DNA from: Sedimentibacter hydroxybenzoicus DSM 7310 | Lineage (GTDB): Bacteria > Bacillota > Clostridia > Tissierellales > Sedimentibacteraceae | DNA length: 64,000 nucleotides | Direction of reading: 5' to 3' | NCBI RefSeq assembly: GCF_013403245.1 | Contig: NZ_JACBNQ010000015.1 | Coordinates: 1-64,000 of the forward strand | Shown here: positions 12,286-36,411 of the stretch, one piece after another | Position numbering within the stretch: the stretch's first letter is position 1 | Layout: every line of letters begins with the position of its first letter | The notes under the pieces: generated by a model | What the model saw: the letters and a program-made list of their open reading frames with translations, nothing else | Database searches by the model: none | Told to the model about the DNA's origin: nothing | Made by a program: the position numbers and the translations under genes

Positions 12286-12897
12286 CTATTTTCCTCCCTT
12301 TTTTATTATGACATTAATCCACTTTTCTTCGTTTTTTTCACGTCTTACATCTGCTGTTACCCATAGTTTTAGCACTGTAACATTTTTTATTCCAGCTAAT
12401 AATTCCGTCAACGTTTTTTCTGTATAATCCGCAAAATATCGTCCTTTTGAATCATGTACACCTGTCCCATATTTCCAAGATCCATATAACACACCACTAT
12501 CTTTCAAAGCTACTACAATCTTTAACATTGTTTGTAACATATTTTCCTTAGAAACATGCAATAGTGATGCACAAGCCCAGACTGCATCAAACTCTGCTTC
12601 AAAAAATATATCCTCTGCCTTCATTTGAATAACTACATTATTTGTAATTAATTGCGTTCTTTCACACATTACTTTTGAAGCATCTAAAGAAGTTACACTA
12701 TATCCTTTTTGAGAAAAATATTTGCTGTCTCTCCCACTTCCACATCCAATGTCTAAAATACTACATCCAATAGATAAGTATTTTTCAAACTCACTATAAA
12801 GTTCACTCATGTCAGCATCAATTGTTGTATTAATAAACATATCCGCATTTTGATTATAATACTCAATCGTTGTATTTTCTTGTTTTAAAGTCGCCAT
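12286..12897 (-). CDS. SAM-dependent methyltransferase at the end of the dnd operon
   Basis: A 203-aa class I methyltransferase. The SAM-binding motif I is LDIGCGSGRDSKYFSQKG (about residues 47-64), with an acidic post-I SLDAS and a later WACASLLHVSKENM. There is no DNA-methylase NPPY motif or catalytic Cys motif, so a DNA target is not indicated; small-molecule or protein targets are as likely. Its start overlaps the end of the HNH gene by 13 bp, so it belongs to the same transcript as dndBCDEA. Its role there is unknown. Confidence 0.8.
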   Translation of the reverse strand: MATLKQENTTIEYYNQNADMFINTTIDADMSELYSEFEKYLSIGCSILDIGCGSGRDSKYFSQKGYSVTSLDASKVMCERTQLITNNVVIQMKAEDIFFEAEFDAVWACASLLHVSKENMLQTMLKIVVALKDSGVLYGSWKYGTGVHDSKGRYFADYTEKTLTELLAGIKNVTVLKLWVTADVRREKNEEKWINVIIKKGGK

Positions 12898-14063
12898 AAA
12901 TCATATCCTTGCAATTTTGCTGCATCGTAAACTGGTTTCAAATTATGCTCTAAAATATTTATAAATTGCTCTTCCGTATTTCCCTTTATGTACAAACTCT
13001 CTGATGCCCATATTGAATTCAAGTTATAGCGTCTGCATTTTTCAAACTTATTTTGAAATGCAGTATTTCCATGCGTATCTTCTATCGCAAATATTAACTG
13101 ATATAAATAGAATTGATATTCTGCAAAACCCTTAAAATATTTGTCCCATGGTGGCAGTTTATTATTTTTGCTTGAATTAAGGTTTTTACTCATTGGTGTA
13201 AGATTCCACAACTCGTCGTTCGCTATATATGATCTCGGAACAAAATGATCAAGATCAAATCTTTCCACATTAAGTTTTTCTCCCGTATAAATATCTCGAA
13301 TTGGCTGTCCCGTAATCTGTACTGCTGTTTTCCATAAATCTCGAGCTTTTTCTAATCTTCTCACATTATCTGATTCTGGTGATATCTTGTAAATAATACC
13401 TGGCACTCCTGGGTTTCTATCTTGAAGAAACTGTACCTTATTATATTTAATCCAACTTGTTATTACTGAATAATTATCAAATATCAACTTTCTCCAATTA
13501 TTATTCACTCTTACCTTTTTCCACAACCCACTACCATCAATAATCCTATAAAATAGATTTTCTTCATCCGTAAGTTGTTCCATATATGCGATTAGTCTAC
13601 CTCTCTGGTCCTTTCTTAAATAAGTCAATCCCTCATCATCTAAAAATGGGTACAATAATTTATATGGAACGTAATCTGTTAATCTATATTTATCATTCTT
13701 TAATTTATCATCATTCTTATTAATTGCTAGTAGTAACTCTTCCCTTGATGGATTCTGCGATAATTCGTCTCTCGCATGCTCATTTAATACATTTATTGCA
13801 TGCTCTAAAAAATTTTCGGATTTTCCATTTACTGTCGGACCTAAACGCAAGTGATAATGTGTGACAGTATGCCATGCATCACATATCATTTCATTGATTA
13901 TTTGATCAAATGATAAATCGCCCTCCATCTCTATAATTAGACGTAATATTGCTTCAAGCCAATAAAATTTATAGCTTTGAGACTTGTTGTCCAACATACG
14001 AGCAAACTTATCAGTATCTAGATTGTTTTCATATATAATTTCTAAATGTATTTTCCGATCCAT
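12885..14063 (-). CDS. HNH endonuclease-like protein linked to dnd genes
   Basis: A 392-aa protein. The C-terminal half (about 255-310) holds an HNH nuclease signature: DIYTGEKL (without the usual Cys pair), then FDLDHFVPRSYI and a later NLTPMSKNLNSSKNNKLP, giving the His-Asn-Asn core. The N-terminal half (residues 1-230) has no family I recognise. It lies 17 bp after dndA and overlaps the methyltransferase gene. Known: some HNH enzymes cut phosphorothioated DNA (ScoMcrA). Whether this one senses phosphorothioate, or guards against unmodified DNA, cannot be seen. Confidence 0.75.
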   Translation of the reverse strand: MDRKIHLEIIYENNLDTDKFARMLDNKSQSYKFYWLEAILRLIIEMEGDLSFDQIINEMICDAWHTVTHYHLRLGPTVNGKSENFLEHAINVLNEHARDELSQNPSREELLLAINKNDDKLKNDKYRLTDYVPYKLLYPFLDDEGLTYLRKDQRGRLIAYMEQLTDEENLFYRIIDGSGLWKKVRVNNNWRKLIFDNYSVITSWIKYNKVQFLQDRNPGVPGIIYKISPESDNVRRLEKARDLWKTAVQITGQPIRDIYTGEKLNVERFDLDHFVPRSYIANDELWNLTPMSKNLNSSKNNKLPPWDKYFKGFAEYQFYLYQLIFAIEDTHGNTAFQNKFEKCRRYNLNSIWASESLYIKGNTEEQFINILEHNLKPVYDAAKLQGYDLWRL

Positions 14064-14079
14064 TTTGCCCTCTCCAATT

Positions 14080-15231
14080 CTAATTCCTTATCTGTTTAGC
14101 TATCTTCAGCAATTCTCTAAAATTTTCTATTACATCATCCATAGTTGTACCTGGTCCCCAACTAACTCTTATGGAGTTCTCTATCTGTGATGTTGAAATT
14201 CCCATGGCTCCAAGTACATAACTTGGTGAATAGCTCTTTGATGTACATGCAGAACCATTAGCTAAACCACAATATTGCTTAGTTGAAATCATAAGTGCCT
14301 CTGACGAAACACCATCAATACAAATGTTCAATGTACTGTCTATACAATATTTTTGATCTCCATTTACATGATATTCAACTCCAGAAACATTCAATTCATT
14401 CAATATCTTCTCTTTTATTTCATGCAAGTATGCATTATTCTTTTTATATTCGTTTTCGGCAATCTCACACGCCTTTCCACATCCTGCAGTCAATGCTACA
14501 GGAATAGTACCAGGACGAATCCCATGCTCTTGCTGACCACCATACAATATTGCGTTAACAGGTGGTAATTTGAACGATTTCTTTCTTAAAACAAGAATAC
14601 CTACTCCCTGTGGTCCCATTAACTTATGTGCACTAAAGGACAGCATATTATACTTTAGGCTTCTAACCTCATCTACAAGTTTTCCACAGCTTTGAGTTGC
14701 ATCTGTATGAAATAATACATCCCGTTCCTGCAAAGCCTCTCCCAATTCATTAACCGGTTGAATGATTCCAGTCTCATTATTGACATGCATCACACTGACT
14801 AATAAAGTATCATCTCGAACTTTATCAAGAATTTTATCTATACTCACTCGACCAGATAAATCTGGAGAAACAATGTCAACTTCATACCCTTCTTTCTGTA
14901 AATGACTTACAGTTTCTAAAACAGCCTTATGTTCAATTGCAGTTGTTATGATATGCTTTTTATTATTTTTTTCTGCATATTCTCTCAGGCCTTGAATGGC
15001 AATGTTATTACTTTCTGTTGCTCCACTTGTAAAAAAAACCTCATCTGGTGAAATATTTAAAAGGCTTGCTACTTGTTTTCTTGAGTTCTCAACAACTTTA
15101 CGTGCACTTTCCCCATAGTTATGAGTTCTACTGTCAGCATTACCAATATTATTTTTATAAACCTCAACCATTGCATCTAGAACTCGTAAATCAATTGGAG
15201 TCGAAGCATTGTAATCTAAGTATACACTCAC
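14080..15231 (-). CDS. dndA: Cysteine desulfurase DndA
   Basis: A 383-aa pyridoxal-phosphate enzyme of the IscS/NifS family that takes sulfur from cysteine for DNA phosphorothioation. Seen: YLDYNASTPID at the N-terminus, TSGATESNNIAIQG, a substrate/PLP His in MHVNNETGIIQP, the PLP lysine in SFSAHKLMGPQGVG, and the catalytic Cys in GLANGSACTSKSY. It directly follows dndE with 2 bp between, the order B-C-D-E-A. Could in principle serve other thiolation, but its place makes DndA the clear call. Confidence 0.93.
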   Translation of the reverse strand: MSVYLDYNASTPIDLRVLDAMVEVYKNNIGNADSRTHNYGESARKVVENSRKQVASLLNISPDEVFFTSGATESNNIAIQGLREYAEKNNKKHIITTAIEHKAVLETVSHLQKEGYEVDIVSPDLSGRVSIDKILDKVRDDTLLVSVMHVNNETGIIQPVNELGEALQERDVLFHTDATQSCGKLVDEVRSLKYNMLSFSAHKLMGPQGVGILVLRKKSFKLPPVNAILYGGQQEHGIRPGTIPVALTAGCGKACEIAENEYKKNNAYLHEIKEKILNELNVSGVEYHVNGDQKYCIDSTLNICIDGVSSEALMISTKQYCGLANGSACTSKSYSPSYVLGAMGISTSQIENSIRVSWGPGTTMDDVIENFRELLKIAKQIRN

Positions 15232-15233
15232 TA

Positions 15234-15617
15234 TTATTTCTCCTTTACTGACAACTCTACCAAATCATTAATACTCTTAATAAATCCTGTTCCACAGAGA
15301 TGTGCAATCCCTCTCTCTAAATTCAGTCGAAAGTATTTATAAACAGTTTCATCATCCGTTGGTAAGTTCATTTGAATGCACCAAGCTTTTACAAGAGCTT
15401 CATATATTTCATAATAATCACCACCAAATGTGTACCATGACATCTCCAAATTACTATCAGCAATAATAAGAATATCTGTTGGAATTGTTTTTTCACTTAG
15501 CGAATAACATAATGCCCATCTACATAAAACATTCCAGTTTTTAATACCAGTTTTTCCTTTTAATCTTGATAATTGATCTTTCGCCTGTTGTGAAAGACGT
15601 ACTTGCTTCATTATCAT
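15234..15617 (-). CDS. dndE: DNA phosphorothioation protein DndE
   Basis: A 127-aa basic protein with the DndE pattern: VRLSQQAKDQLSRLKGKTG, NVLCRWALCYSLSE. DndE binds nicked DNA and works with DndC and DndD in sulfur insertion. Its ATG overlaps the stop of dndD (ATGA), with GGAG 7 nt before the start that lies inside the end of dndD, so the two are translationally coupled. Length is normal. Confidence 0.93.
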   Translation of the reverse strand: MIMKQVRLSQQAKDQLSRLKGKTGIKNWNVLCRWALCYSLSEKTIPTDILIIADSNLEMSWYTFGGDYYEIYEALVKAWCIQMNLPTDDETVYKYFRLNLERGIAHLCGTGFIKSINDLVELSVKEK

Positions 15618-17566
15618 ATTTCTGCTCCAATCAAATACCCTCTCTTAATTGAGGTGCTTTTCGTTGTTTCATCATATTTCAATGTGAATTCATCACCGAC
15701 ATTTGCTTTCATTAATTTGTAATATCCAGCATCTATTTCAGAATCAGTTGATAGAATAATAGTTTGTTCCCCTGCATTAGGGAAATAGTTTGTAACTAAT
15801 GATGTTCTATGTAAAGAATCTAATCTTGACAATGGTGTATCAATTATTACTGGTAAACTTTTCTTTGAACATATAGCCAGAGCCCACAAAATTGAAATCA
15901 CCATTAATTGCTTTTCACCTGCAGATAAAAAATCTTTAGGAACTTCCTGTCCGTCTTCAGATAAATATTGAATATCCAATGTTTCAGAATCCATAACAAT
16001 TTTCTTAATTAAATTTTTCTTATTTGCAAGCTTTTTATAACAGTCTGTAATTGTATCTGCTAGCACATCCGTCTTTCGCTTTTGAAGTTCAACTATATAT
16101 TTTTCTATAATATTCAGCGCCATATTTGAATACTTAATGATTCGATCTGTACTATCTCTTAACTCAGCTGTAGATAAATAAGATTCTACGTATTTACTGA
16201 ATTCTGCTGTTGCAGTCATCATCTTTGAATTAGCTGCACTTCTCTGTCGATCTAATTCAAGCATTTTCACCTGATAATCGATTATAATTTGTTCTGCCCC
16301 TTTTATTTGATTGTATATTTCTTGAAGCTCTTTATCATTTATGTCTAAAGAAAGATAGCTATCTAATTCTCCAATTTGCTTTTCTAATTTCTTTTTCGAT
16401 ACTAAAATGCTTCTTGTCTCATCATCAACATTTTTCATAATACTTTCAACCAAATTATTTGTCTGAAATAACGCCTGATCTGACAACTCATATATTGGTT
16501 CACTCTGATCACTATTAACCTGCGCTTTTACATAATTGATAAAGTCTAAACTCGCCTTAGTATCTCCTGAATATTCTGATTCAAATTCCTTATATAATCC
16601 ATCAAGCTGAGCAGTTACCTGCTTCATAATCATATCTGCATGCTCGTCTGTAGCTTGCAGCTTAATATCACGAATTAAATCTTTAACGAGAAGTAATGGT
16701 AATTCCGACGCCGTTAACTCATATAATCTACTTTCTTCCCCTGATAAATCAGCCATAAGAGTAGCTCTTTTTTTCACTGTCTCCTGACGCTTGTCTACAG
16801 CATCACCACCTTTAGCAGTATATAACTGATGTAGTGTCTCTAAATTATCCCTACCTCCAACTAACTTATGACTTAACTCCTCAATCTGAGCATCTATCGT
16901 TGCTAAAGCTTCTATTGCCTTTTCTTTTTCTTCTCTAAGTTCCTGAACTCTTTCTGCATTCTTGTTATCTTTCCCTTTTTTATTTGTTTTTTTAAGGTTA
17001 CGCATAATATCATTACTTAAAACATCAAGTACAGATATCCCAAGCATTGAACGAATAGAATTCTTTAGCTGAACATTTGTATTATCTACAGATAACTCTG
17101 CAATTTTCTCGCCATCAAAGAAGAAAAAACTTGATAAAGCACTTGGCAATATATTCTCTACAAACATTGGCCAGTTATTTGTCAAAAATTCATTATAGAT
17201 GCCATCCTTATAAATACTGATTCGTTCCTTTGTTATTTTAGTTACAGTATCCCATTCTCTTTTTACAATATAGTTTTCCTTAACCTCATTATTGATTTCA
17301 AATTCAAGTTCTACACTACAAGTTTTATCACTTTCACTTCTATTTACAAATGAGCGCAAATACTGTGCATACGACTTTTGATTGCTCTCAGAATATGCAA
17401 AGGAATTCGAACCATATAACGCCAAAAGTACTGCTTCGAGAAAAGTTGTCTTACCTCGTCCATTCATTCCTCCCACTAACACTATTGGCTTTCGATTTTC
17501 AAATAAAAACATATTTTCTCCGGCATATACACCGAAATTACATAATGTCAATTTCTTTATTATCAT
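15614..17566 (-). CDS. dndD: DNA phosphorothioation ATPase DndD
   Basis: A 650-aa SMC/RecN-like ATPase, the nicking and energy component of DNA phosphorothioation. N-terminal Walker A GGMNGRGKTTFLEAVLLALYG (about residues 33-53; note Met-Asn-Gly in the loop), a long central coiled coil (about 190-480) rich in Glu, Lys and Leu, then the signature FLSAGEKQLMVISILWAL, Walker B LPVIIDTPLSRLD, and a terminal switch region TIILSTDSEID. Sits 6 bp after dndC and overlaps dndE. Confidence 0.93.
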   Translation of the reverse strand: MIIKKLTLCNFGVYAGENMFLFENRKPIVLVGGMNGRGKTTFLEAVLLALYGSNSFAYSESNQKSYAQYLRSFVNRSESDKTCSVELEFEINNEVKENYIVKREWDTVTKITKERISIYKDGIYNEFLTNNWPMFVENILPSALSSFFFFDGEKIAELSVDNTNVQLKNSIRSMLGISVLDVLSNDIMRNLKKTNKKGKDNKNAERVQELREEKEKAIEALATIDAQIEELSHKLVGGRDNLETLHQLYTAKGGDAVDKRQETVKKRATLMADLSGEESRLYELTASELPLLLVKDLIRDIKLQATDEHADMIMKQVTAQLDGLYKEFESEYSGDTKASLDFINYVKAQVNSDQSEPIYELSDQALFQTNNLVESIMKNVDDETRSILVSKKKLEKQIGELDSYLSLDINDKELQEIYNQIKGAEQIIIDYQVKMLELDRQRSAANSKMMTATAEFSKYVESYLSTAELRDSTDRIIKYSNMALNIIEKYIVELQKRKTDVLADTITDCYKKLANKKNLIKKIVMDSETLDIQYLSEDGQEVPKDFLSAGEKQLMVISILWALAICSKKSLPVIIDTPLSRLDSLHRTSLVTNYFPNAGEQTIILSTDSEIDAGYYKLMKANVGDEFTLKYDETTKSTSIKRGYLIGAEI

Positions 17567-17572
17567 TCGCTA

Positions 17573-19069
17573 TTATTCCTCATCACTTTCAAATTCTGAC
17601 TCTAACGGTTGGAAATCCAAAAATTTCTCATTATACTTACCGCCATACTCTTTTTTTCGAATCATCATTTCAGAATAAAATTGTGTTGCATCCTCTTCAT
17701 TCTTGTAAAAGGTCTTTTCCAATGTACTATTAATATCATCAAGAATGCCTTTTCTCTGATTTACCCCAGACGCTTTATTCTCTATGTCAATTAAGGTATA
17801 CATCATTTCAAAAGCCAGTTCTTCATCTGGATACATTTTTGAGCATACTGTTTTCAGAATTTCCCATTCATCATTTTCAAAGTTTTCATTATGAATCCAT
17901 TCCGGATCCTCAAACGGTTTACCCAATACTTTTTCATAAATTCTGGGTAACGAATCGTCAAACTCATGCTTATCATTCACCCAAATACGTCTTATTGCCT
18001 GTAATTCCGGTAATCTTATCAATTCAAGATCACTAAACTCTTCAGGCCCATTTTCGCTAATATCTTTTTGTATTGATAATAATCTCTCAAGCCAATGTTC
18101 TCTGACTTCCTTTTTGTATGGTCCATGAAATAATTTCCCATAATTTCCTTGAAGGTTTCCTCTCATTCTCCTGAAACTTCTTCTTTCACGATCCCCTTCT
18201 TCATTTCCAAATTCGTTTCTAAACTCAAGCAATGAAGTCATCCACTCTTTTTCTTGGTCATTCGCAATCATTGCTTCCATAGATTTATCCTTTTCAACCA
18301 TGGTGCATACCCAACAACCAAAACGACTTTTTCCACATGAAGGTAAAGTTCTATCTACCATAAGCGGACACTCATTATCTGCTGTCGCACCACGATACAT
18401 TGTCATTAAATCCATATTTGAATATCCCCAAGGATTCTTATACTGCATCAGAAAAGCCCAAACATCATCATCAGTCCAATCTTCCATTGGAGAAAAAACT
18501 AATTCATTTGCTAATGTCGGATTGGGACTTAATAATTCTCTAACTCTTTTCTTCTCAAGATTTGTCATCGTTCTATTTCGTCTTGAACTTTCTTGCTTTC
18601 TAGTCCCAAGTACAAGAATCACTTCTCCATGTTCAGCTATTTTATTCTTTATAAAATTGTTTACAGGCTGAATCTTCAATCTATCTGTACACCAACGATA
18701 TTTCATTCTTGGGAATGGATATCCTCTTCCTATTAAATTTACCCAAAATGTATTGTTGTAATCTGGAATTAATCGTTCGGGAATGAAAGGTAGTTTTTTC
18801 TCTTCTGCTTCTTTGTTCATAGACTCAAGTGATTTCTCAACCCATTTTGATACAACAGGCGATTCAACTAAAGTATCTGTATTCATAATATGAATTGCCT
18901 TTTTTCTCTCATTTTCAGGAAGTTTTTCAATTGCCATCCAAACAAGCTGAACTGCAGCTGTACTATCCTTACCTCCGGAATATCCAATCATCCAAGGAAT
19001 ATCATCCGCAATATATAGATTTTGAATAGTAACAATCAACCCATCGATTGTCTCCTTTGCAATTGCCAT
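17573..19069 (-). CDS. dndC: DNA phosphorothioation sulfurtransferase DndC
   Basis: A 498-aa PAPS-reductase-like protein that activates the DNA backbone with ATP and transfers sulfur. PP-loop motif GYSGGKDSTAAVQLVW near residue 29; four cysteines in CPLMVDRTLPSC and GCWVCTM, the expected iron-sulfur ligands; and the PMEDWTDDDVWAFLM phrase typical of this superfamily. Length matches DndC. It is followed by dndD after 6 bp and preceded by dndB with 10 bp between. Confidence 0.94.
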   Translation of the reverse strand: MAIAKETIDGLIVTIQNLYIADDIPWMIGYSGGKDSTAAVQLVWMAIEKLPENERKKAIHIMNTDTLVESPVVSKWVEKSLESMNKEAEEKKLPFIPERLIPDYNNTFWVNLIGRGYPFPRMKYRWCTDRLKIQPVNNFIKNKIAEHGEVILVLGTRKQESSRRNRTMTNLEKKRVRELLSPNPTLANELVFSPMEDWTDDDVWAFLMQYKNPWGYSNMDLMTMYRGATADNECPLMVDRTLPSCGKSRFGCWVCTMVEKDKSMEAMIANDQEKEWMTSLLEFRNEFGNEEGDRERRSFRRMRGNLQGNYGKLFHGPYKKEVREHWLERLLSIQKDISENGPEEFSDLELIRLPELQAIRRIWVNDKHEFDDSLPRIYEKVLGKPFEDPEWIHNENFENDEWEILKTVCSKMYPDEELAFEMMYTLIDIENKASGVNQRKGILDDINSTLEKTFYKNEEDATQFYSEMMIRKKEYGGKYNEKFLDFQPLESEFESDEE

Positions 19070-19079
19070 CTTATATCCT

Positions 19080-20150
19080 CTATTCTTCTATTGTTTTCTT
19101 TAAAGCTTCCTCTGCATTCTTTTCTTCTTGTGTAAGAGGAATACCAATCTCTTTCTTAATAACATTTGATATAAGCATTGCAGCTTTTTTATTTGTTATT
19201 ATCCGACCATTTTTGCCAACTGCTCTCATATACCACTGTTTTGCATTTCTGCTCCAGTTAATCTTTTCTATTTTCTCAAGATACAATTCCATTTCAACTT
19301 CATTAGAATAAAAATAATTGCCAATTCGACCAAATGCTTGAATTACAATACTCTGAGTTGCTATAAAGTTTTCTCTTAAATCCACTTTGGTTATCTCTCG
19401 ATTTCGAAGATCTTTCCACTGCTTCATATTTTTTACAACTAAATCCCAATAACTCAGTAAGAAACTCTCATAATCACCATTTTGATTCCTTCCTACAATG
19501 CTTTTATTAGCTGTGTAAAATGTGTTTAATGTAAATAAACTCGACGAAAACTTTCCAAGTATGTCCTTCTCTTTATCCGTATATATATTTAAGAATTCTA
19601 TGTTCCATATTACGTTTCTAGTTATCACGGCCATTTCATCTCTAGAATCATAAAGTTCTGATATGGAGTTTGATGTCTTGACAGCATTTTTATTTAAATC
19701 CGTAAAGATTTGTTGACTTCTCTTTAATCCTTGATCCGCATAAAATACTATGGATATCGTCTCATTTTCTAGTGTAGGATCTTCTTTTAGCGCTGCCAAA
19801 ATGGCAGATTTTCGATGCTGCCCATCATTAATCAAAAAATGTGCATCCATGGACACTTCTAATATACCTGTATCATGATTAATATCATTTTCTTCAAAAG
19901 AAAATTCTCCATCAATTGAAGCAGCAAGTGCTGAGAATACATAAGAATCTCTATTATCCAGTATGTATCTACTAATTACAGGGATTCTTGCTTCATTTAA
20001 TTTTCTTTGGGCTCTGTATTCTGGCAAAATAAATTCTTCATCATCTACCAGAAACATCTTAGAAAGCATCTTTAATGGGACCATCGCAATGTAAAATTTT
20101 GTTCCAGCCTGAATACCTCTAACAACAGGAAATCTATATACAAATTCCAT
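19080..20150 (-). CDS. dndB: DndB, DGQHR-domain regulator of phosphorothioation
   Basis: A 356-aa member of the DGQHR family, with FLINDGQHRKSAILAALKED (about residues 107-126) and FTDLNKNAVKTSNSISELYD downstream. In Streptomyces and Salmonella, DndB-type proteins bind the dnd promoter and limit transcription. Here it is the first gene of the dnd block, behind its own promoter and a perfect palindrome, which suits such a regulator. GGAGGAAGT precedes its ATG. Similar domains occur in DpdB of the 7-deazapurine system, but the neighbours decide for DndB. Confidence 0.93.
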   Translation of the reverse strand: MEFVYRFPVVRGIQAGTKFYIAMVPLKMLSKMFLVDDEEFILPEYRAQRKLNEARIPVISRYILDNRDSYVFSALAASIDGEFSFEENDINHDTGILEVSMDAHFLINDGQHRKSAILAALKEDPTLENETISIVFYADQGLKRSQQIFTDLNKNAVKTSNSISELYDSRDEMAVITRNVIWNIEFLNIYTDKEKDILGKFSSSLFTLNTFYTANKSIVGRNQNGDYESFLLSYWDLVVKNMKQWKDLRNREITKVDLRENFIATQSIVIQAFGRIGNYFYSNEVEMELYLEKIEKINWSRNAKQWYMRAVGKNGRIITNKKAAMLISNVIKKEIGIPLTQEEKNAEEALKKTIEE

Positions 20151-20172
20151 ACTTCCTCCGCATAATAAAAAT

Positions 20173-20223: not shown

Positions 20224-20239
20224 TCGATATCTATAAAAT

Positions 20240-24000: not shown

Positions 24001-24014
24001 AATCTACCTCCTAC

Positions 24015-24791: not shown

Positions 24792-24802
24792 AATTTCCCT
24801 TT

Positions 24803-27271: not shown

Positions 27272-30200
27272 CATCTGCTCCAATCATCATTACAAACGCT
27301 GCTGATTCCAAGTGAATCTTTGGTCGCTTAATTGCATCTAATATTATTGTTTGTGTTGCCTTAAGCGATTCAATTCCCTCATCGCTTAGTCCGTAATATT
27401 CACTATTTGCCACTCGTGCAGATAACGTTCTTTCCATTTCTTCTCTAGCACCTTTTATATTTGATCTTCTTTTGAATATTTCGAGCGCCTTATTATATGA
27501 CTCTTTTCTTGATGAAACTATAAATTCCTCCCAATTTTCTCCACCATATTTTTGTTTAAACCAGTCTATGTTTCTTCCTGCAAACTCATCCTTCAGAAAC
27601 TGAGCCTCTCTGCTCCTCTTACCTAAATGGACGATTTTTGATTTAATAAAGCCAATATTAATTATCGAAAGGTACTCTCTTACTATTTCTTCATCGGATA
27701 ATGAATCATCATTTGAGATTGTAATAGGAGAAATAACTTGCTCAGATAATAAATAGTTTCGATATGGGCTCATTGCATAAAGTGAAACTCCGTTATCCAG
27801 CATGTATGCATTATTAGGTGCAATAGACCATGTAAATATTAATCCACACCAATTAACTCTGCTTCTTACTGCAAATGCACTTGCACATCCTTTACAAGAT
27901 TTCATAGCATTATCTACAATACAATCAAATACTTCATCTCCTGGCGCAAAGAAATGCAGATAATCATTCTCTATTGCTAACTTTCTTGAAAAAGTTCCTC
28001 GTATTGCTCTATCCTGAGATTTTCTTGAAATACTTTTATCATATGATGCTTGAACATCTATTAAAAACTTGTTTTGCTCAGAATTTAAATAATCATTCCA
28101 TCGTGGCGGAATTAGCTGAGAATTAATAGCTGATTTCGGCGAAAACGATGTAGCAGAATATGATATTTCTGTATTTTTCACGTTTCCATGAAATCCAGCT
28201 AAACTTGCCCAGTTTGACATGGTCATTGCAAATAACTCATTTTCATTCTGTGCATAATACTCAATTAATCTTCTAAGTTCAGAATACATTGGCCTATAAA
28301 TAAATCCCGCCGCATCAAAATTCTGCTCTTTTCTAATTACGTCACGCATTGAGTTTGCAAGATCTACTATTTTAGGAATTCGATTAAACAATCCATATTT
28401 AAAATCTTCCTTAATAGCAGAAACAATCTCATCATTAATATCTTTCATGATGATTTCCATTCCACTCAATGACTGATTAAATATTTGAAGTCCATTCTTA
28501 AAGAAACTAAATAATGCATCCTCAAAAGTATCTATGGTATGAACAACAACAGAATATACAACTGGTCTAGACATATCTCTTTCCAGACGATCTAATCGTC
28601 CTATTCTTTGCTCAATCGCACTTGTATCCCATGGCAAATCAATATGTACAATATAGTCAGCACACTGAAAATTTCGTCCTTCACCACCTGTATAATCGCA
28701 TAACATTATTCGGCACTCTGATTGTGTTTGAAATCTATATGCATTTAGTTCTATTGCTTCCGCCTCCATATCTGCGCCAAAGAAACTTACTTCCTCTTCA
28801 GGAAAAACATGTATAAGAGCTTCTCTATACGCTCTAAAAGTTTCCTTATAATTAGTGAATAAAACTACCTTCTTATCGTATAATTCATCAAATAACGCAT
28901 CTAGCACAACAACTAATCTTGAAGAATAACTCTCACCATACTGATCCGGATCGTTTAAAGCATCTACGATATTGTCTATATTATACTGTTCTGTTTCTAA
29001 CCATTTTCTCGCATTTTCAATAATTTCTTCTCCTAATCCAAGCTTGGATGCTCTTTCAACAAAAGCCCATGGCGAACTAAAAAATGCTGATAATAATGGT
29101 CTTATATCTACATCAACATCCGCTGATCCCACTTCTAATTCATGGATAATCCAATTTGATAACTCACTGTATGTAAGATATTCATATGAATTTTTTTCAT
29201 TGTCTGCAGAATACGTTATTTCTACAAGGTCCCGAGTCGCCATTAGTTTTTCTTCTTCATCTTCTGACTCTAAAAGCTTTCTTCTATTCCTGATGATATT
29301 GCTCTCAATCTGATAATTACTACAAATATATGAAATAATTACTTTAATTGAATAAACACCTAGGTCCTTATCAGCAAAATTTATTCTCCCAAGAAACTCT
29401 AATAATTTTTCATCATCTAATTCATCGCATATTTCCTCTAAATCATCATGAATTTCTGCAAATAATTCTTTACAATCTTCAGATTCATGCGCATCTTCCA
29501 GTTCATCTTTGGCGTTCTCAATTTCTTCTTCTAAATCCTCCAAATCATCTAAAATCAGCGCAGTTTTTTGAATAATTCTGCTTTGCTTACTAATTAGCTC
29601 TCCGAATCTTTCGACACTGTAATTGTCATATTTAAAAGGCAGAAGCAGTCTTAATAAATCCAAATACTCTTCTTTTTTTTGCTGAACTGGAGTTGCACTT
29701 AAAAGTAATAAATTTTTAGCATTCTTACTAATTGTATGTAGTTTCGCATAGTCATTCATTGAAAACAGATATTTGTGAACCTCGTCAATAATGACAAAAT
29801 CCCACATTTTACTTATATTATTGCTAGTTATTTCATCCAGCGTCTTAACCTCAACAAAGTTATTGTTCGCACCAATACCCACAAGTATATTAAATTTTAG
29901 TAACAGCTCTGATTTCCATTGAGCTTTTAATGCTTCTGGCACGATCACCAATAATTTTGTATTACTCTGATTTATTGAAAATATTTTATAAACAGAAATG
30001 GCTTCAACAGTTTTTCCCATTCCAACTTCATCGGCTAACATATATCTGCATGGAGACTCCTGGAGGCATCTCATAATAGTGTTGACCTGATGTGGTAATA
30101 AGTAAATTTTTGATCCGGCAAGTTCCTTAAAACCATAAATAGAGTTCTCTAAAATATTCATACTTTTAGAAACAACAGCTCTGCCTAAATACCAACACGG

Positions 30201-30620
30201 ATTCTGAAATTCATACCTTTTCAGCTGTGTACATGGATCTATCTGTCCATTGTTAAAGGATGCAATAATATCTTTCTCACAGACCTTATATATACTCTTA
30301 TCTTTTAAATTTTGAATATAATAGTAGTAATATTTATCTTTACTTTTCTGGTTTGAAAGAATTCTGTGATTAATTCCTTTATAAACGACCGTAGATCCAA
30401 CAAACAAGCTGCACCTCTCTACCACCCCTTCTGGAATTTCAATTGTCCCCTTTGATAGATCCTCAAAAAATATCATATATTGAAATGGATCATATATTTT
30501 AACCGATACGGTACGTTTAAATTCATCAACTTTTATTATATGCCCACAAACGAAAATTCGTGGTTCTGCCATGCTTTCTTTATCTGCAGGGCATCTAACA
30601 TACATTTTTGTATTAAGCAT
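27264..30620 (-). CDS. SNF2/RapA-like helicase, DpdE-like
   Basis: A 1118-aa superfamily 2 ATPase. An N-terminal beta-rich region (1-160) precedes motif I YMLADEVGMGKTVEAI (about 193-208), motif Ia VIVPEALKAQW, motif II IIDEVH (about 277-282), motif III LLLSATP, then an acidic insertion (about 365-410) and the C-terminal lobe with CRIMLCDYTGGEGRNFQCAD and QRIGRLDR. The late LADEVGMGKT and IGRLDR motifs are those of RapA and DpdE helicases, which lack the nuclease of classic SNF2 restriction enzymes. Its place before a RecQ-like gene matches dpdE-dpdF. Likely a DNA translocase of the restriction complex. Confidence 0.8.
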   Translation of the reverse strand: MLNTKMYVRCPADKESMAEPRIFVCGHIIKVDEFKRTVSVKIYDPFQYMIFFEDLSKGTIEIPEGVVERCSLFVGSTVVYKGINHRILSNQKSKDKYYYYYIQNLKDKSIYKVCEKDIIASFNNGQIDPCTQLKRYEFQNPCWYLGRAVVSKSMNILENSIYGFKELAGSKIYLLPHQVNTIMRCLQESPCRYMLADEVGMGKTVEAISVYKIFSINQSNTKLLVIVPEALKAQWKSELLLKFNILVGIGANNNFVEVKTLDEITSNNISKMWDFVIIDEVHKYLFSMNDYAKLHTISKNAKNLLLLSATPVQQKKEEYLDLLRLLLPFKYDNYSVERFGELISKQSRIIQKTALILDDLEDLEEEIENAKDELEDAHESEDCKELFAEIHDDLEEICDELDDEKLLEFLGRINFADKDLGVYSIKVIISYICSNYQIESNIIRNRRKLLESEDEEEKLMATRDLVEITYSADNEKNSYEYLTYSELSNWIIHELEVGSADVDVDIRPLLSAFFSSPWAFVERASKLGLGEEIIENARKWLETEQYNIDNIVDALNDPDQYGESYSSRLVVVLDALFDELYDKKVVLFTNYKETFRAYREALIHVFPEEEVSFFGADMEAEAIELNAYRFQTQSECRIMLCDYTGGEGRNFQCADYIVHIDLPWDTSAIEQRIGRLDRLERDMSRPVVYSVVVHTIDTFEDALFSFFKNGLQIFNQSLSGMEIIMKDINDEIVSAIKEDFKYGLFNRIPKIVDLANSMRDVIRKEQNFDAAGFIYRPMYSELRRLIEYYAQNENELFAMTMSNWASLAGFHGNVKNTEISYSATSFSPKSAINSQLIPPRWNDYLNSEQNKFLIDVQASYDKSISRKSQDRAIRGTFSRKLAIENDYLHFFAPGDEVFDCIVDNAMKSCKGCASAFAVRSRVNWCGLIFTWSIAPNNAYMLDNGVSLYAMSPYRNYLLSEQVISPITISNDDSLSDEEIVREYLSIINIGFIKSKIVHLGKRSREAQFLKDEFAGRNIDWFKQKYGGENWEEFIVSSRKESYNKALEIFKRRSNIKGAREEMERTLSARVANSEYYGLSDEGIESLKATQTIILDAIKRPKIHLESAAFVMMIGADDE

Positions 30621-30638
30621 AATCGGTCTCCATTTTAT

Positions 30639-33299
30639 TTATTCTATATTGGCGTAATAAGCGACACATATTTCGCGATTAGTACAATATTTACACCATA
30701 AATTAGTATCACTGCGGAATTTAATTTCTTTAAGATTTTCAACAGACAAGTCTTGGTCTATCTTATCTTGATTAACATCCGGAAATTTGTCCTTTAAAAC
30801 ATCTTGGTTGAACTTTTTAGGATCCTTTAACTGTTTGTATATGAAAAGTTCGCGTATCATCATATATTTTCTATTTTCTTCTGATAAAACAGAAAAAGAC
30901 TTATCTTTATTTAATCTATTTCTTACATTGTTGATAATATCTATTCGATTGACATTCAATACAAATGGGAAATACTTCTTTATTTCATCATAGATTTCAT
31001 TTAACTTTTCCAGCAAAAGAATTTCACTACAAGGTAACCCTTGCATACTTTCTTTGGTTTCATTTTCTAACCAAACTTCCAAATACTTGACCAACAAAAA
31101 GTTATCCTTATAAACGGTATTCCCTTCTGATAGGGTTTCGAATAAAAATCTTTGTTTGCAGATTCTATACCTGTAATAATCGTAAGAAGTATATTTTCCC
31201 ACAGAACCTACTTTAAAGTTTATATCTGAGAAATCTTCTAATTTGTTTTTTATACGTTTATCTATATTCCTTTCCTTTTTAATTCCAAGGATTTTTAACA
31301 AATAATATGGTTCTCTTTCTTGATCTCCATCTCGTTTTACAAAACTTAATTTGTACTTTCCTCTATTAAATTCTAACCCGTAGATTAACGCATATCTTTT
31401 AAAGTTCTTATACTCTTTTCTAGCTTTAACATATACTTGATATTTCCAATCTACTGGATTCTGTGCAACTTCAAAGAACTCGCCCGTTAAAGGCCAAGAG
31501 AATTCACCATTTTTTACCGAATTTATATCTTCATCAGTCAAACATGCAAAATGAAGGATACTACTTTCCTGTTCCTTTACAGTTCGCAAAACATCACCAT
31601 CAATTTGTTCAAAGTTACGTACAATCCAATTGGCGCTCTTTCCAGGTTTTGTTTCTTGAACTAAATATAATGACATTGTGGATTTTAAGCATTCAAATGA
31701 AGCGGATGCCTCAATGTTCTCCACTTCATCTAATCTGCTAAGCACTCTATTAATAATGTCTACAAACACTTCTCCAAGTTCTCTATCTTCTAGAATTTCT
31801 TCTTGCAGATATTTTTTTAGTCGCTTATAAAATGCCTTAAAATTATTAGGTCTTTTTTCAAAGTCTTCATAAAAGAATGATGCTAACTCTTCTAAATTAT
31901 TTAATGCCATCTCTAATTCATAAAGTTCACCTAAAGATACTGCATAATATGAAATATGACTAACATATTCCTGGCGTTTATCATCTGATAAATACTTACG
32001 ATTTTTTCTTACCTTTTTTATTCTTGTAAGCATGTCATCAACAGAAATGCATCCCTCAAATAATGCTTCCATTTTTCCAAATGTTGACGCCAATCTCCCA
32101 GGGGTCTCTTCTTCAAGAATTCCAGCACTTAAGCACTCTCGAATATCATTTAAATCTGAAATCACAGTACCATTTGCACTTGAATCCCACATGTTAGCTA
32201 CTGCAATAAAGAAATGACCTAATGGATAATTTAAAAATTGTCTTTCTCCAAACTGTTCTGGAAAATACACCTTCAAAATATCGTTTGCGGAACTATCTGC
32301 TGCATAGATTTGCTCATTCATTGCCAACATAGGATGCTCTGGGTCTTTTCTCTCTGCAGCCTCAAAAACTCGAGCTACGTATCCTGCAAATTCTGTCATA
32401 TTATCAAATTCGATTATTTTATATGGCTTCTCTACAGAAAAATCTTCTTTTCTTCCCGAAAGAAGTTTTCCCATATTTTGTGCCAATACGTTGCCTTCAT
32501 AGCTAATTGAACTGCTATCTATAGGATGAAATTCATCTCCTTTATAATCTATTATTTTGCAATCAAAAGACGAATAAATGTCAACCCATGTTTGATATAC
32601 GTTCTTGTATTGTTCCTGATAATTGAACAATAGAATTACTTTTTTATATTTACTTATCTCCTCAATTGTTCTTAACATTAAAGGTGAAAATTGATGAACT
32701 CCTTGAATAACAATATGATCCAAATCCTTCACTTCCACTTCGCCCTCAGAATTAGAATTTTTTCTCGCGTTATTCATAGCTTTGGAAAGAGCAATATTAA
32801 TCTCTTCTTCTGTAAAATTTTCTTTTAGGAAGAAATCTTTTTCTTTCTCGGATTCAAGTATATTTTTGAATACTGCAACAATATATCTTTGCTCTGGAGT
32901 AAGATATTCATCCACTATATTCTGAGGAATCATCCTTAATTCAAACATTGTTCTTATGCTACTGAACACTTCATCTCGATTAAATAAAAATGATTTTCTA
33001 ATATTATCTAACTCTTCATCTGTCAATCCTATTTCATTACTTGAATTAATAATAACATTGTCTATATCCGCATGTTGCTTTACTGCGCATGAAGTGCTTG
33101 TCCAAAATTCATATAATGAGTCAGTCAAATTTTTTATGGTTGTTACTCTGCCTATCTGAAAAGACTTGCCATATATACTTTTCAATCCATTTACAAGAGT
33201 CTGGGACACACAAAAATAAGGGCAATTTGATATTTCATCCCAAAATTTTTCTTTGTTTATTTTGTATGGATCATGATAAGTGTAAATAATAATTGACAT
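30639..33299 (-). CDS. AddB-like protein with C-terminal Fe-S cysteines
   Basis: An 886-aa protein. The C-terminus ends with CKYCTNREIC (CX2CX5C), and a further Cys occurs about 150 residues earlier in YRYRICKQRF. Together these are the four iron-sulfur ligands of AddB and Cas4-type PD-(D/E)XK nucleases. In AddB a GRIDRID...DYKS nuclease motif lies between them; I do not see it here, so cleavage activity is doubtful. No Walker A is visible at the N-terminus either. It lies 1 bp after a UvrD-like gene, like the addB-addA pair, and 18 bp before the DpdE-like gene. Probably an AddAB-derived partner used for holding DNA. Confidence 0.65.
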   Translation of the reverse strand: MSIIIYTYHDPYKINKEKFWDEISNCPYFCVSQTLVNGLKSIYGKSFQIGRVTTIKNLTDSLYEFWTSTSCAVKQHADIDNVIINSSNEIGLTDEELDNIRKSFLFNRDEVFSSIRTMFELRMIPQNIVDEYLTPEQRYIVAVFKNILESEKEKDFFLKENFTEEEINIALSKAMNNARKNSNSEGEVEVKDLDHIVIQGVHQFSPLMLRTIEEISKYKKVILLFNYQEQYKNVYQTWVDIYSSFDCKIIDYKGDEFHPIDSSSISYEGNVLAQNMGKLLSGRKEDFSVEKPYKIIEFDNMTEFAGYVARVFEAAERKDPEHPMLAMNEQIYAADSSANDILKVYFPEQFGERQFLNYPLGHFFIAVANMWDSSANGTVISDLNDIRECLSAGILEEETPGRLASTFGKMEALFEGCISVDDMLTRIKKVRKNRKYLSDDKRQEYVSHISYYAVSLGELYELEMALNNLEELASFFYEDFEKRPNNFKAFYKRLKKYLQEEILEDRELGEVFVDIINRVLSRLDEVENIEASASFECLKSTMSLYLVQETKPGKSANWIVRNFEQIDGDVLRTVKEQESSILHFACLTDEDINSVKNGEFSWPLTGEFFEVAQNPVDWKYQVYVKARKEYKNFKRYALIYGLEFNRGKYKLSFVKRDGDQEREPYYLLKILGIKKERNIDKRIKNKLEDFSDINFKVGSVGKYTSYDYYRYRICKQRFLFETLSEGNTVYKDNFLLVKYLEVWLENETKESMQGLPCSEILLLEKLNEIYDEIKKYFPFVLNVNRIDIINNVRNRLNKDKSFSVLSEENRKYMMIRELFIYKQLKDPKKFNQDVLKDKFPDVNQDKIDQDLSVENLKEIKFRSDTNLWCKYCTNREICVAYYANIE

Positions 33300-33300
33300 T

Positions 33301-36300
33301 TTATTCCTCCAATAGTGATGCCCAACTAATATGTGGTGTACTATCTAAATTATTAATCCAAATACAGCTTCTAATCGCTCTAGTAAGTGCTACATACAAA
33401 ATTCTTGATTCTTCTGCTATTTGCTCATCGACCTCAGTGCTTTCACTATAATTTGAATTTCGTTCTCTTATACCATTTTCAAACAACACAGTATACGACA
33501 ATTTATTATCATCATAATTTGCCTCCAACTTTACCTTTTTGGTATCACTAATATCCTCGTATGTGTAAGGTAAAATTACAGTTCCATACTCCAATCCTTT
33601 TGACTTGTGTACTGTCGTACAAATCACATGTACACCATCGTCGTCTACTTCTGTAGATCTTGACAACTGTTGTTGTCCTGTTAAAATATTTATTCCTAAG
33701 TACTCAATAACTTGACTTAATGTCAGAGCATCTATTCGAGAAAACTTAATCATGCGTTCCAATAAGTATTCATAATTAGCTATGTACATCCTCTGTTTGT
33801 CTGGAACTAAGCTATAATTTTCCCATGGTTGTAGAGTATCAAATATTTTCTTCAGTACATATAAAATAGGCTGGCTATACACTTCTGATAAGACAGAATT
33901 CCATGACATTCCCATTCTTCTCTCAAAGAATTCATCTAGTACCCCTGTCAATAGTTTAAGTTTTTCCTCTTCCGATATGCAATGCATTTTAGTATAATCT
34001 AATTTAAGGTTTGTATAATTTGATTCAATAAAATTAACCAAATATACTGGACTTGTATTATGACTTATTGCAAGAACAATTTTGTAAAGGTCTAAAGTTG
34101 ATGGCAATTGAAACAAATCTCCACCCGTACTGATTTCAATATTAATATCCCTTTTTGTTGCAGCATTAACTACACTTTCAACTTGCCAATTGCTTCGAAC
34201 CAGAATAGCTATTGTTCGTTCTTCCTTACTTAATGTCTTTGTTTGCATCAAATTTTCTATTTTAGCCTTTTCCGACAAAATAATATCATTTAGCAATTCC
34301 AATATTTTTTCACTGTCCTTACCATGACATGGCATACAAATCATTAATTCATCTTCTTTTGCATCGGTAACTACATCACTTACAAGCTGGTCATCTTCTC
34401 TTGTATAAGGAAGTATTTGTCGTGATCCCATCAAAGAGAATATCCTATCAAACAATTTAAGTAGTCTAGCATCTGTTCGATAATTTCTATTTAGTCTATA
34501 ATGGCTCCATTCGTTTTCTTTTCCATTTTGCAACCTCTGAAAAGCATTTAATTTTGCACCGCGAAATCTATAAATACTCTGTTTTAAGTCTCCCACAACA
34601 AATAACTTACATTCTGTATTTATACTTTTTTGTAATTTCTGAAATACTCCAATCTGAACATCATCCGTATCCTGAAACTCATCAATAAACATATACCTTA
34701 GTTTCAAATTTTCAAGTTTATCACATCTCATTGATAGTATTTTATTCAGTTCAATTAAGCATTCTTTTAAATCAACTTTATTACTTGCTTTCATCATTTC
34801 TAGATAGATTGCTTCTGCTGGAAAAACAACTCTTATAAGTAAGTCATTAAAATATGGAATATTATTTTCTACTGTCACACCCATTTCTTGTACTTTTATC
34901 TGTTCAAAATTGATACTCCTATCGAACAATCGATCAGCCACATTCATTAACTTTTTCTTTAAATCATAAATTGGTATGGGAAACTCATTTATAAAATTTG
35001 AATTCTCCCTTTCTCTCTCATCTAAATATTCACCTAAGAAAATGTCATAAGAGCGTCCTCTATCATATTCATTAGACGAAATTCTAAAATTTGTACCTAA
35101 TCCTGTATATAAAGACTCACCTCTCATTATTCTTATTCCAAACTTATGAATCGTTGATATATTAGCACGGTCTATATCTTCTACATGCTTTAAAAATCTT
35201 TCATGACCTGTTAATACAAAGTAATTGATGAACATCTGTTTTAACCGTTTCTTCATGTTAATAGCTGCATCATTTGTAAAGGTAACCATTGCAATTTCTT
35301 TAGATATATCTGATATCGGATTACTCTCATTGTTACATAAATAAGCAATTCTAGAGACCATTAAAAAGGTTTTACCGGTTCCCGCTCCAGCTTCAACTAG
35401 AATGTCTTTTTCCATAGTGGCATGTTCAACTTTATACTGTTGTAGATTAAATGATGAACACTTAGCCAATACCTCTAAAGTTTTATGAAAAGCTAAACTT
35501 ACATTTCCTTCATTTATGCATATTTTCTCATAACATTTACTTTCTAAAGACTTCACCCAATATAATTCAAAATTAAAAATTTTGAAGCAATCTTTATCAT
35601 GTGATAAAGGAATACCCTTATCAAAACCTATATGTAAATTATTCTTTTTATAATCAATATTACGCTGTTTTAAAGCACAATTTAGAGAACTGAGTATTTC
35701 TTCATAATAAGTTTGTGTATTTACAAAAATAATATTTTTTACACCTAAAAAATACTCGTCTATAAGAGAATCTATCTCTATCTTTGAAATAGTTACCGGA
35801 TACACAAGAAGCCTTGAATAAGGTAAAACTTTATTCTCTTCATTAACTGCTTTTAATCCCGCTTCAAGATTTCTTCTTATTCTCAGCATAAGATCATAAG
35901 AAAAATCAGAATGTGGAATTACATTATTGATGTTATATACTTCTTGAATCTTAATATTCAGTATATCTTTATCTTCAAGATCCTCTTTAAATAATGTATA
36001 TTGTTCTTCAGAAATAATGTTTAACTTGGTTTCGTAATATTGCTCTCTTGATATAAACGGATAACAAACCATATCTAAAACAAGTGGGCTTACATTATAC
36101 ATACTACTTATCTTATTAAGGATTGAAAATCTATACGCTCTTGCCTGTTTTTTGGGAGATCCTTGTGGCTTGTCATATCCCTCAACTTCTATATTGTCCA
36201 CACCATTAACAGTTATTTTATCAGGCGCCCATCCTTTAACCTCAATAACAATAATGCCTCGATTTTCTGTCATAATACAGAAATCATATTCTCTACCATT

Positions 36301-36411
36301 TATTTCTCTTTGGTTGTATACAACTGTGTCATTTGATAAGTATTCGCATAAACTATCCCAAACTTTTCCTTCACCTTTATAGGAAGGCTTTACATCTATC
36401 ATCTTAGCCAT
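33301..36411 (-). CDS. NERD-domain UvrD/AddA-like helicase
   Basis: A 1036-aa superfamily 1 helicase and first gene of the defence operon. The N-terminal 120 residues form a NERD nuclease-related domain (REYDFCIMTENRGIIVIEVKG supplies Asp and Glu-X-Lys). Helicase motifs follow: I VEAGAGTGKTFLMVSR (about 339-354), II YMFIDEFQDTDDVQ, III VGDLKQSIYRFRGA, IV LNRNYRT, V TVHKSKGLEYGTVILPYTY, VI ILYVALTRA. It unwinds 3'-5' in related enzymes. With the next gene it recalls AddAB, but the nuclease here is NERD at the N-terminus, not a C-terminal RecB domain. GGGGA lies 9 nt before the ATG. Confidence 0.85.
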   Translation of the reverse strand: MAKMIDVKPSYKGEGKVWDSLCEYLSNDTVVYNQREINGREYDFCIMTENRGIIVIEVKGWAPDKITVNGVDNIEVEGYDKPQGSPKKQARAYRFSILNKISSMYNVSPLVLDMVCYPFISREQYYETKLNIISEEQYTLFKEDLEDKDILNIKIQEVYNINNVIPHSDFSYDLMLRIRRNLEAGLKAVNEENKVLPYSRLLVYPVTISKIEIDSLIDEYFLGVKNIIFVNTQTYYEEILSSLNCALKQRNIDYKKNNLHIGFDKGIPLSHDKDCFKIFNFELYWVKSLESKCYEKICINEGNVSLAFHKTLEVLAKCSSFNLQQYKVEHATMEKDILVEAGAGTGKTFLMVSRIAYLCNNESNPISDISKEIAMVTFTNDAAINMKKRLKQMFINYFVLTGHERFLKHVEDIDRANISTIHKFGIRIMRGESLYTGLGTNFRISSNEYDRGRSYDIFLGEYLDERERENSNFINEFPIPIYDLKKKLMNVADRLFDRSINFEQIKVQEMGVTVENNIPYFNDLLIRVVFPAEAIYLEMMKASNKVDLKECLIELNKILSMRCDKLENLKLRYMFIDEFQDTDDVQIGVFQKLQKSINTECKLFVVGDLKQSIYRFRGAKLNAFQRLQNGKENEWSHYRLNRNYRTDARLLKLFDRIFSLMGSRQILPYTREDDQLVSDVVTDAKEDELMICMPCHGKDSEKILELLNDIILSEKAKIENLMQTKTLSKEERTIAILVRSNWQVESVVNAATKRDINIEISTGGDLFQLPSTLDLYKIVLAISHNTSPVYLVNFIESNYTNLKLDYTKMHCISEEEKLKLLTGVLDEFFERRMGMSWNSVLSEVYSQPILYVLKKIFDTLQPWENYSLVPDKQRMYIANYEYLLERMIKFSRIDALTLSQVIEYLGINILTGQQQLSRSTEVDDDGVHVICTTVHKSKGLEYGTVILPYTYEDISDTKKVKLEANYDDNKLSYTVLFENGIRERNSNYSESTEVDEQIAEESRILYVALTRAIRSCIWINNLDSTPHISWASLLEE

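Follow-up and report, generated by a model that had tools for sequence, protein, structure and literature searches.

In this study, we focus on the fourteen genes that fill positions 12286 to 36411 of a 64,000-nucleotide stretch from Sedimentibacter hydroxybenzoicus DSM 7310 (contig NZ_JACBNQ010000015.1, positions 1 to 64,000; hereafter, the window). Judged by their sequences, these genes form a real, conserved and repeatedly assembled composite, in which the dnd genes for phosphorothioate (PT) modification are joined to an effector of the Dpd type and to a pair of proteins derived from AddAB. We consider that they probably work as a single defence system resembling restriction-modification, in which PT would be the self-mark and the Dpd-type cassette, together with the AddAB-derived pair, would be the effector. 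All fourteen open reading frames (ORFs) are carried by the minus strand, and from 36411 downward they follow each other in the order NERD-UvrD, AddB-like, DpdE, DpdF, a protein of 258 amino acids (aa), DpdH, a 220 aa protein, then DndB, DndC, DndD, DndE, DndA, an HNH endonuclease and a methyltransferase. The intergenic distances taken from the ORF list range from -20 to +89 bases (in order, 1, 18, -20, 11, 14, -4, 89, 10, 6, -4, 2, 16 and -13), an operon-like spacing that bears out the first-pass annotation, which had described fourteen minus-strand genes with tiny gaps or overlaps. The same gene order is found again in records from other species, so that the arrangement is beyond chance.

The fourteen proteins were scanned with the Pfam, NCBIfam and PADLOC family models, and three proteins of the central part of the block were recognized as relatives of Dpd proteins. 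The first one (27264..30620) is an SNF2/RapA-type superfamily 2 (SF2) translocase of 1118 aa, which matches the DpdE model NF041062 (E 8e-104, 349 bits for a cut-off of 500), has DpdE as its top PADLOC family (239 bits), and shows the SF2 motifs DEVGMGKT and DEVH in its translation. The second one (24803..27283, 826 aa, with a TTG start as listed) is a RecQ-like SF2 helicase that matches the DpdF model NF041063 (E 3e-145, 486 bits for a cut-off of 550), again with DpdF as the top PADLOC family and with visible TGGGKS and DEAH motifs. The third one (20899..24000) is a large P-loop ATPase of 1033 aa that matches the DpdH model NF041065 (E 6e-84, 283 bits for a cut-off of 450) and carries the Walker A sequence GQSGTGKS. 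These three matches extend over most of the length of the models, and all of them stay under the equivalog cut-offs, so that by this standard the proteins are relatives and not orthologues.

The two small proteins of this part had no match in any of the three collections, and their assignment depends on more sensitive comparisons. Annotated dpd islands of plasmids run from dpdE-F-G-H through a small unnamed gene to dpdJ, K and D, and the 258 aa protein (24015..24791) and the 220 aa protein (20240..20902) occupy the positions of dpdG and of this small gene, respectively. The 258 aa protein resembles the proteins encoded at the dpdG position in Paenibacillus sp. 37 (2e-17) and in Deinococcus (5e-7), and its family aligns by hhalign to the canonical DpdG-position proteins with a probability of 98.4% (E 8e-15), the Paenibacillus and second-lineage rows having been removed. 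Likewise, the 220 aa protein resembles by blastp the post-dpdH proteins of Paenibacillus sp. 37 (9e-15) and Deinococcus (3e-5), and its family, compared under the same conditions with canonical post-dpdH proteins alone, aligns with a probability of 94.7% (E 6e-8). Three crossed hhalign controls gave at most 0.3%. The AF2 model of the DpdG homologue (mean predicted local distance difference test, pLDDT, 90.5) gives winged-helix matches in VIA with Z up to 9.7 over residues 9-155, its N-terminal part, while Foldseek returned nothing at E 0.001 and the sequence search of solved structures with the DpdG alignment found no match. The DpdG model NF041064 matched neither the host genome nor any control genome. 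The post-dpdH gene could be the published dpdI, a reading that comes from its position, and we therefore refer to it by this position. Profiles for E, F and H, profile-profile alignments with their negative controls for G and the post-dpdH gene, and gene order converge on a cassette made of dpdE-F-G-H plus the post-dpdH gene, in this order; the dpdEFGH-type helicase block first proposed for this stretch is thus recovered, and its profiles do show a relation to DpdE-H.

Upstream of this cassette stands a pair that recalls AddAB. The NERD-UvrD protein (33301..36411, 1036 aa) combines an N-terminal NERD nuclease of the PD-(D/E)xK type (residues 11-109, 33 bits) with a UvrD-family superfamily 1 (SF1) helicase (UvrD-helicase, 157 bits, and UvrD_C, extending up to residue 1012), both the NERD and UvrD-helicase scores being over the Pfam cut-off. 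It carries the motifs AGAGTGKT (Walker A) and DEFQ, and Pfam found no AddA-type C-terminal RecB-type nuclease in it, nor any nuclease domain besides NERD. The NERD residues D43 and E57-x-K59 are kept in the window protein, in 13 core relatives and in L020, a Ruminococcus locus; the ORF of L047 as seen begins after D43, and in the Ruminococcaceae bacterium P7 the region is missing at the contig start. Its partner (30639..33299, 886 aa) matched no Pfam, NCBIfam or PADLOC model. A model of its structure has AddB chains as top Foldseek matches (4cei_B, E 5.9e-9; 3u44_B, E 1.1e-8), followed by UvrD and RecC chains, and VIA superposes it on AddB with Z 10.4 over 526 residues at a root-mean-square deviation of 6.7; the sequence search of solved structures with its alignment gave a single match, at E 0.31. 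Since the mean pLDDT of this model is only 65 (15 sequences), the AddB fold remains a tentative assignment. The protein ends with a C...C-x2-C-x5-C pattern, of which C714, C869, C872 and C878 are invariant in the 15 sequences, and the C-x2-C-x5-C part is also present in four distant AddB-like relatives; C714 and the cluster at 869-878 resemble the iron-sulfur ligands of AddB. Regular expressions found neither a Walker A nor a GxxDRxD nuclease motif in the window protein, the nuclease scan being for GxxDRxD only. In the distant relatives, however, three of the four (L046, L047 and Paenibacillus) contain a looser, nuclease-like D-x(8-14)-(D/E)-x-K pattern within their last 250 residues, so a family-wide loss of AddB catalysis should not be claimed. 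The proposal of an AddAB-derived pair is supported by these data, with the low-confidence AddB match on one side and a UvrD partner bearing its NERD at the N-terminus on the other. Searches of the two small Dpd proteins and of the AddB-like protein against PHROGs gave weak matches only (E 0.02-0.1), to families of unknown function.

Relatives of this pair were also encountered in other settings. On the Geobacillus zalihae plasmid pJS1-2 (L055, 15419-22392), a small protein and another helicase come after a UvrD/AddB-like pair, with no Dpd or dnd matches, and this group is possibly a separate defence unit. An unverified 8.4 kb record labelled 'Bacteriophage sp.' (L056, MT836883.1) encodes relatives of NERD-UvrD and of the AddB-like protein at 31-32% identity, and may be bacterial DNA labelled as phage. 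Among viral contigs, 36 pattern matches contained no relative.

The downstream half of the block carries the modification genes. DndB (19080..20150; TIGR03233, 407 bits for a cut-off of 328) has its DGQHR domain with the motif at residue 109; DndC (17573..19069; TIGR03183, 618 bits for 290) is a sulfurtransferase resembling phosphoadenosine phosphosulfate (PAPS) reductase, with SGGKDS at residue 31; DndD (15614..17566; TIGR03185, 455 bits for 246) is an ABC-type ATPase with a Walker A motif; and DndE (15234..15617; TIGR03184, 117 bits for 72) is also matched by the Pfam DndE family. All four exceed their NCBIfam cut-offs. The DndA-type cysteine desulfurase (14080..15231) scores just under its own (TIGR03235, 439 bits for 480), PADLOC places SspA slightly above DndA (436 and 421 bits), and the catalytic-type cysteine is present (NGSAC329TS). 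The motifs for ATP use are intact in DndD, as they are in NERD-UvrD and DpdH.

Several parts that usually accompany Dpd or dnd genes were also searched for. With Enterobacter, Caulobacter and Paenibacillus queries, tblastn at E 0.001 found no DpdA, DpdB, DpdD or DpdK, either in the window or across 38 related loci that overlap in part, the host genome beyond the window not being searched for DpdA; for DpdJ, there were only short helicase-domain matches inside the dpdF genes of 6 loci. Four control islands were included, and each of these five proteins recovers a gene in one or more of them. In the family scans, none of the 14 proteins was matched by a model for DpdA, B, C or D, and no DpdC query was run. 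The earlier statement that the window contains no dpdA/TGT-like gene therefore holds at this threshold, and so does the one that dptFGH is missing, since PADLOC and NCBIfam give no match to DptF, DptG or DptH among the 14 proteins. The model TIGR03237 (dnd_assoc_2), which we take to be DptH, was found in none of 14 genomes searched entirely, and control genomes had no match either. A gene-for-gene identity of the helicase block with PbeABCD was considered and rejected on the described content of that system and on the PADLOC matches: PbeA gives a 29-bit match only, to the C-terminal part of the DpdF helicase, and the PbeC matches listed are to the DndD gene.

We then come to the distribution of the system, for which the first-pass annotation had proposed a survey of gene order. 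The AddB-like protein was used to scan 84,980 species genomes, in which 19 loci were found, for the most part in Lachnospiraceae and other Clostridia, with one labelled actinobacterium and one Erysipelotrichaceae. NERD-UvrD directly precedes the AddB-like gene in 18 of them, and DpdE follows it in 16, L016 and L020 ending inside AddB. The full DpdE-F-G-H run is present in 14 loci, L003 and L005 being cut by contig ends, and DndC is found in the genomes of 15 (it is missing for L003, L005, L016 and L021). In 13 of the 14 contigs with the full run, dndC-D-E-A lies beside the 220 aa gene, on the same strand as the block in 12 of the 13 and converging with it in one (L015/L037); dndB is present in 10 of the 13. 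The survey thus finds dnd neighbours as a rule, and adds to them a second, divergent lineage described below. The Ruminococcaceae bacterium P7 (L019) was dropped as a dnd-coupled case, its only DndC being short or cut and on another contig; in L050 (15112-16601), from the same organism, the block and the post-dpdH gene are followed by a HARE-HTH/Mrr-type nuclease, and the NERD part is cut by the contig start. In Eubacterium plexicaudatum ASF492 (L014, L038), NERD-UvrD, AddB, DndB and DndC are each split into two ORFs, by decay or sequencing errors. Closer to the host, this genome is the only one of 25 from its genus to have the DpdH protein, and in 398 genomes of the phylum DpdH matches three, this one and two weak fragments, which makes it too rare for a census of neighbourhoods; DndC matches 32 of these 398 genomes at E 0.001, and 5 over the cut-off, this genome included.

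A relative of the AddB-like protein occurs in 4 of the 249 genomes of the host's order, this one included, and this is where the second lineage appears. The contig of genome G249 carries NERD-UvrD, an AddB 27% identical to that of the window, two small genes, DpdE, F, G, H, the post-dpdH gene, DndC and the start of DndD, before it ends. In genome G222, the contig runs from AddB through two genes into the block and ends at DpdG, and the genome has no DndD match, while G050 has a very distant AddB only (19%), with no Dpd genes in the part seen. The two proteins found between AddB and DpdE in the second lineage (181-192 aa and 284-379 aa; L046, 3896-5629, and L047, 8270-9691) are uncharacterised, with no Pfam or NCBIfam match. 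In the Ruminococcus locus L020, dndC, dndD and dndA come directly before NERD-UvrD and AddB, after which the contig ends.

The common history of the two halves was then addressed. Across 14 systems, two of which had broken ORFs, the distance matrices of six block proteins and of DndC/D/E/A are correlated (r 0.87, permutation p 0.0001; r 0.94 without L015), and the block and dnd trees have their main groups in common, with local differences. The block-linked DndCs fall in two places of the DndC tree: the core group stands by L057, a dnd locus with the closest DndC outside this group, and G249 goes with L020. A single clade for the 13 tested block-linked DndC rows is rejected (148 log units, AU p 2e-44). 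On the side of the block, the Paenibacillus protein linked to dpdA groups with the second lineage, with supports of 99 for DpdE (95 in another run), 66 for DpdF and 98 for DpdH, and a clade of dnd-linked DpdE is weakly rejected (p 0.019, with long branches). We ran both clade tests with the first trees already in view. Related blocks are thus found beside at least two dnd lineages and one dpdA, which means repeated pairing or an exchange of the mark module, and this recurrence is our main argument for dnd and the block functioning together. The coupling of a Dpd-type effector to a PT mark, as it had been proposed for this stretch, is therefore supported at the level of genes and evolution, from which we infer that the two parts work jointly and that PT is read.

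It could be argued that a solitary dnd module shares a defence island with a separate helicase system, which would be Dpd-derived and independent of any mark. The modules are indeed exchangeable, dnd is convergent in L037, the P7 block has no adjoining dnd in the part seen, and L057 has no block in the 19 kb seen. Two independent units are nevertheless hard to reconcile with genes that keep one order and stay adjacent in 13 of the 14 full-run contigs, with the correlated divergence, with the pairing with two dnd lineages and with the lack of DpdA or DpdB in these loci, and we hold this explanation to be decidedly unlikely. The single system that we favour has in turn to accommodate several observations that weigh against it. 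The P7 locus (L019/L050) is one of them, together with L021, whose 8 kb contain an AddB fragment and, besides it, no block gene. The opposite strand of dnd in L015/L037 means that one transcript is not required. DpdE, F and H do not reach their equivalog cut-offs, the AddB-like model is of low confidence, and as the phospholipase D (PLD) nuclease and the YprA helicase of Dpd (K and J) are missing, the cassette need not act as it does in Dpd islands. Finally, NERD nucleases at the edges of dnd loci are read as backup effectors in the part of PMC10853773 available to us.

Two accessory genes end the block. The first one encodes an HNH_4 endonuclease (12885..14063) that is present in 9 of the 13 related loci plus one fragment, and the second one a class I S-adenosylmethionine methyltransferase (12286..12897; Pfam Methyltransf_11), present in 5 of the 13 plus one fragment. 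In L028 (5252-7537, minus strand) and L034 (7784-10060, plus strand), HNH is missing; beyond dndA lies a ResIII helicase of 758-761 aa, weakly matched by the MTES_1575 nuclease family, which is perhaps an alternative accessory nuclease. One may then imagine that HNH, or the ResIII nuclease in its place, is the actual restriction enzyme, and that the block serves for repair or regulation. The position of these genes after dndA agrees with this idea, and so does the proposal, in the accessible text of PMC10853773, that HNH proteins next to dnd are restriction components; since the block is retained in loci that differ in their HNH and methyltransferase genes, this idea seems to us highly improbable.

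As for the sequence context, the base composition is 0.29-0.34 within the block and 0.32-0.48 outside, a contrast that is no more than suggestive. Promoter-like sites (7 and 8, where shuffles gave 5.6 and 8.5) and terminator-like sites (1 and 1, against 0.6 and 0.2) gave nothing usable. In a check for empty sites, DNA from the two flanks of this 3.8 Mb genome's block matched 3 and 22 of 25 same-genus genomes (its own included), through partial and scattered matches.

How could such a system work? DndA-E would insert sulfur into host DNA at short sites, with DndB adjusting how much is modified. The effector would consist of the DpdE-F-G-H cassette, the post-dpdH protein and the NERD-UvrD/AddB-like pair. 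In this scheme, the winged-helix DpdG, the post-dpdH protein and the DpdH ATPase would be a DNA-bound sensor and loader, DpdE and DpdF would translocate along DNA and open it, and the pair would resect it, NERD being the cutting nuclease and the cysteine-bearing end of the AddB-like protein having a structural role. DNA devoid of PT would be engaged and degraded, and DNA bearing it would be spared, because PT would stop loading or movement. From the intact motifs, the winged-helix DpdG and the restriction role of the dpdD-K operon, which acts against unmodified DNA according to what is accessible of PMC11888242, we infer that PT serves as the self-mark and that DNA lacking it is attacked by the cassette, with NERD as the nuclease. 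Sequence does not reveal the sign of this control, because known PT effectors include both PT-activated and PT-restrained ones: in the accessible parts of PMC11662687 and PMC8092258, SspE needs PT while DndI and SspFGH are toxic without it, and in that of PMC6459918, PbeABCD is PT-dependent and viral DNA is not cleaved. The cassette might accordingly be activated by PT or by a phage modification, as PT activates SspE, or might act through abortive infection. Nothing in the sequence fixes the direction, and the Dpd counterpart, besides acting on unmodified DNA, is described as lowering transformation in the portion of PMC12707154 at hand; a reversed sign is in our view rather unlikely. A more speculative extension of the PT self-mark scheme, which we consider unlikely as well, is that the Dpd cassette is a mark-agnostic engine that moved more than once between 7-deazaguanine and phosphorothioate, sparse PT acting as Chi-like stop signs for AddAB-like resection. 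Resection of host DNA would soon meet a nuclease-resistant PT link, when unmarked phage DNA would be resected to its end; if true, this would account for the protection of a whole genome by a mark that only a minority of its sites carry.

The joining of sulfur-mark genes to an attack set known from base-mark systems suggests that attack sets can be re-paired with another self-mark. The mark would then be separable from the engine, with two engines for one mark and one engine for two marks. In the literature accessible to us, Dpd restriction genes otherwise go with 7-deazaguanine marks, and for many dnd modules no restriction partner is known. The dnd loci of gut Clostridia gain here a candidate effector, and gene exchange could address whether a Dpd effector reads the mark or only its absence. 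In the passages of openly accessible papers that we searched, no published description of this pairing was found. The main text of PMC10853773, which reports DndFGH in 806 of 3416 taxa with a dnd-linked nuclease, contains none of the terms Dpd, AddB, RecQ, RapA and UvrD; DpdE, F, H, J and D are not named in the part of PMC12839542 available; and the census of PMC11888242, as far as its accessible text goes, required dpdAB and would miss a dnd-linked block. A PT motif is reported for a Lachnospiraceae gut isolate in PMC11931770.

Among the known systems close to this one are the Dpd islands, in which dpdE-F-G-H and the small gene after them have one-by-one homologues in the window, arranged in identical order; the window differs from them by the lack of dpdA, dpdB, dpdD, dpdJ (YprA helicase) and dpdK (PLD nuclease), and by the presence of dnd and of the AddAB-like pair. 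The dpd island of the Paenibacillus sp. 37 plasmid pART37 (NZ_CP043762.1) has the best plasmid DpdE match (31.7% identity, nearly full length), relatives of DpdF, G, H and the post-dpdH protein, and, at the far end of the island, a UvrD helicase (1.5e-32) and a weakly AddB-like protein (0.002) with the same C-x2-C-x5-C. Unlike the window, it carries dpdA, queC, queE, dpdJ, dpdK and DpdD; its UvrD aligns to the helicase part only, without NERD, and the pair is not directly before dpdE. This island (L040) has two dpdJ genes and two DpdD-type genes. BRIGADE, the Dpd/ARMADA hybrids of haloarchaea, is also built on Dpd parts, but it keeps YprA helicases and a predicted 7-deazaguanine cluster, as described in the accessible text of PMC12458937, and tblastn finds neither a DpdJ-type (YprA) gene nor DpdA in the window. 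With AddAB/RecBCD, the pair has in common the putative AddB fold, the C-x2-C-x5-C with a distal cysteine and an SF1 UvrD-family partner, whereas its nuclease is an N-terminal NERD on the helicase and GxxDRxD is missing from the AddB-like protein. Among PT systems, DndABCDE-DndFGH (dpt) shares dndB-E and DndA and differs by its DptF, G and H, which have no match in the fourteen proteins. DndCDEA-PbeABCD likewise pairs dnd genes with a helicase-bearing effector set, but of another content, PbeA being a PLD-helicase, PbeC an ABC-type ATPase, and PbeB and PbeD small proteins (accessible parts of PMC6459918 and PMC10853773). SspABCD-SspE, SspABCD-SspFGH and IscS-DndBCDE-DndI, finally, are PT-based self/non-self systems with interchangeable effectors, as we propose for the window, although what they use as effectors are DUF262-HNH proteins or a set that includes an FtsK-like part, according to the available text of PMC8092258 and PMC11662687.

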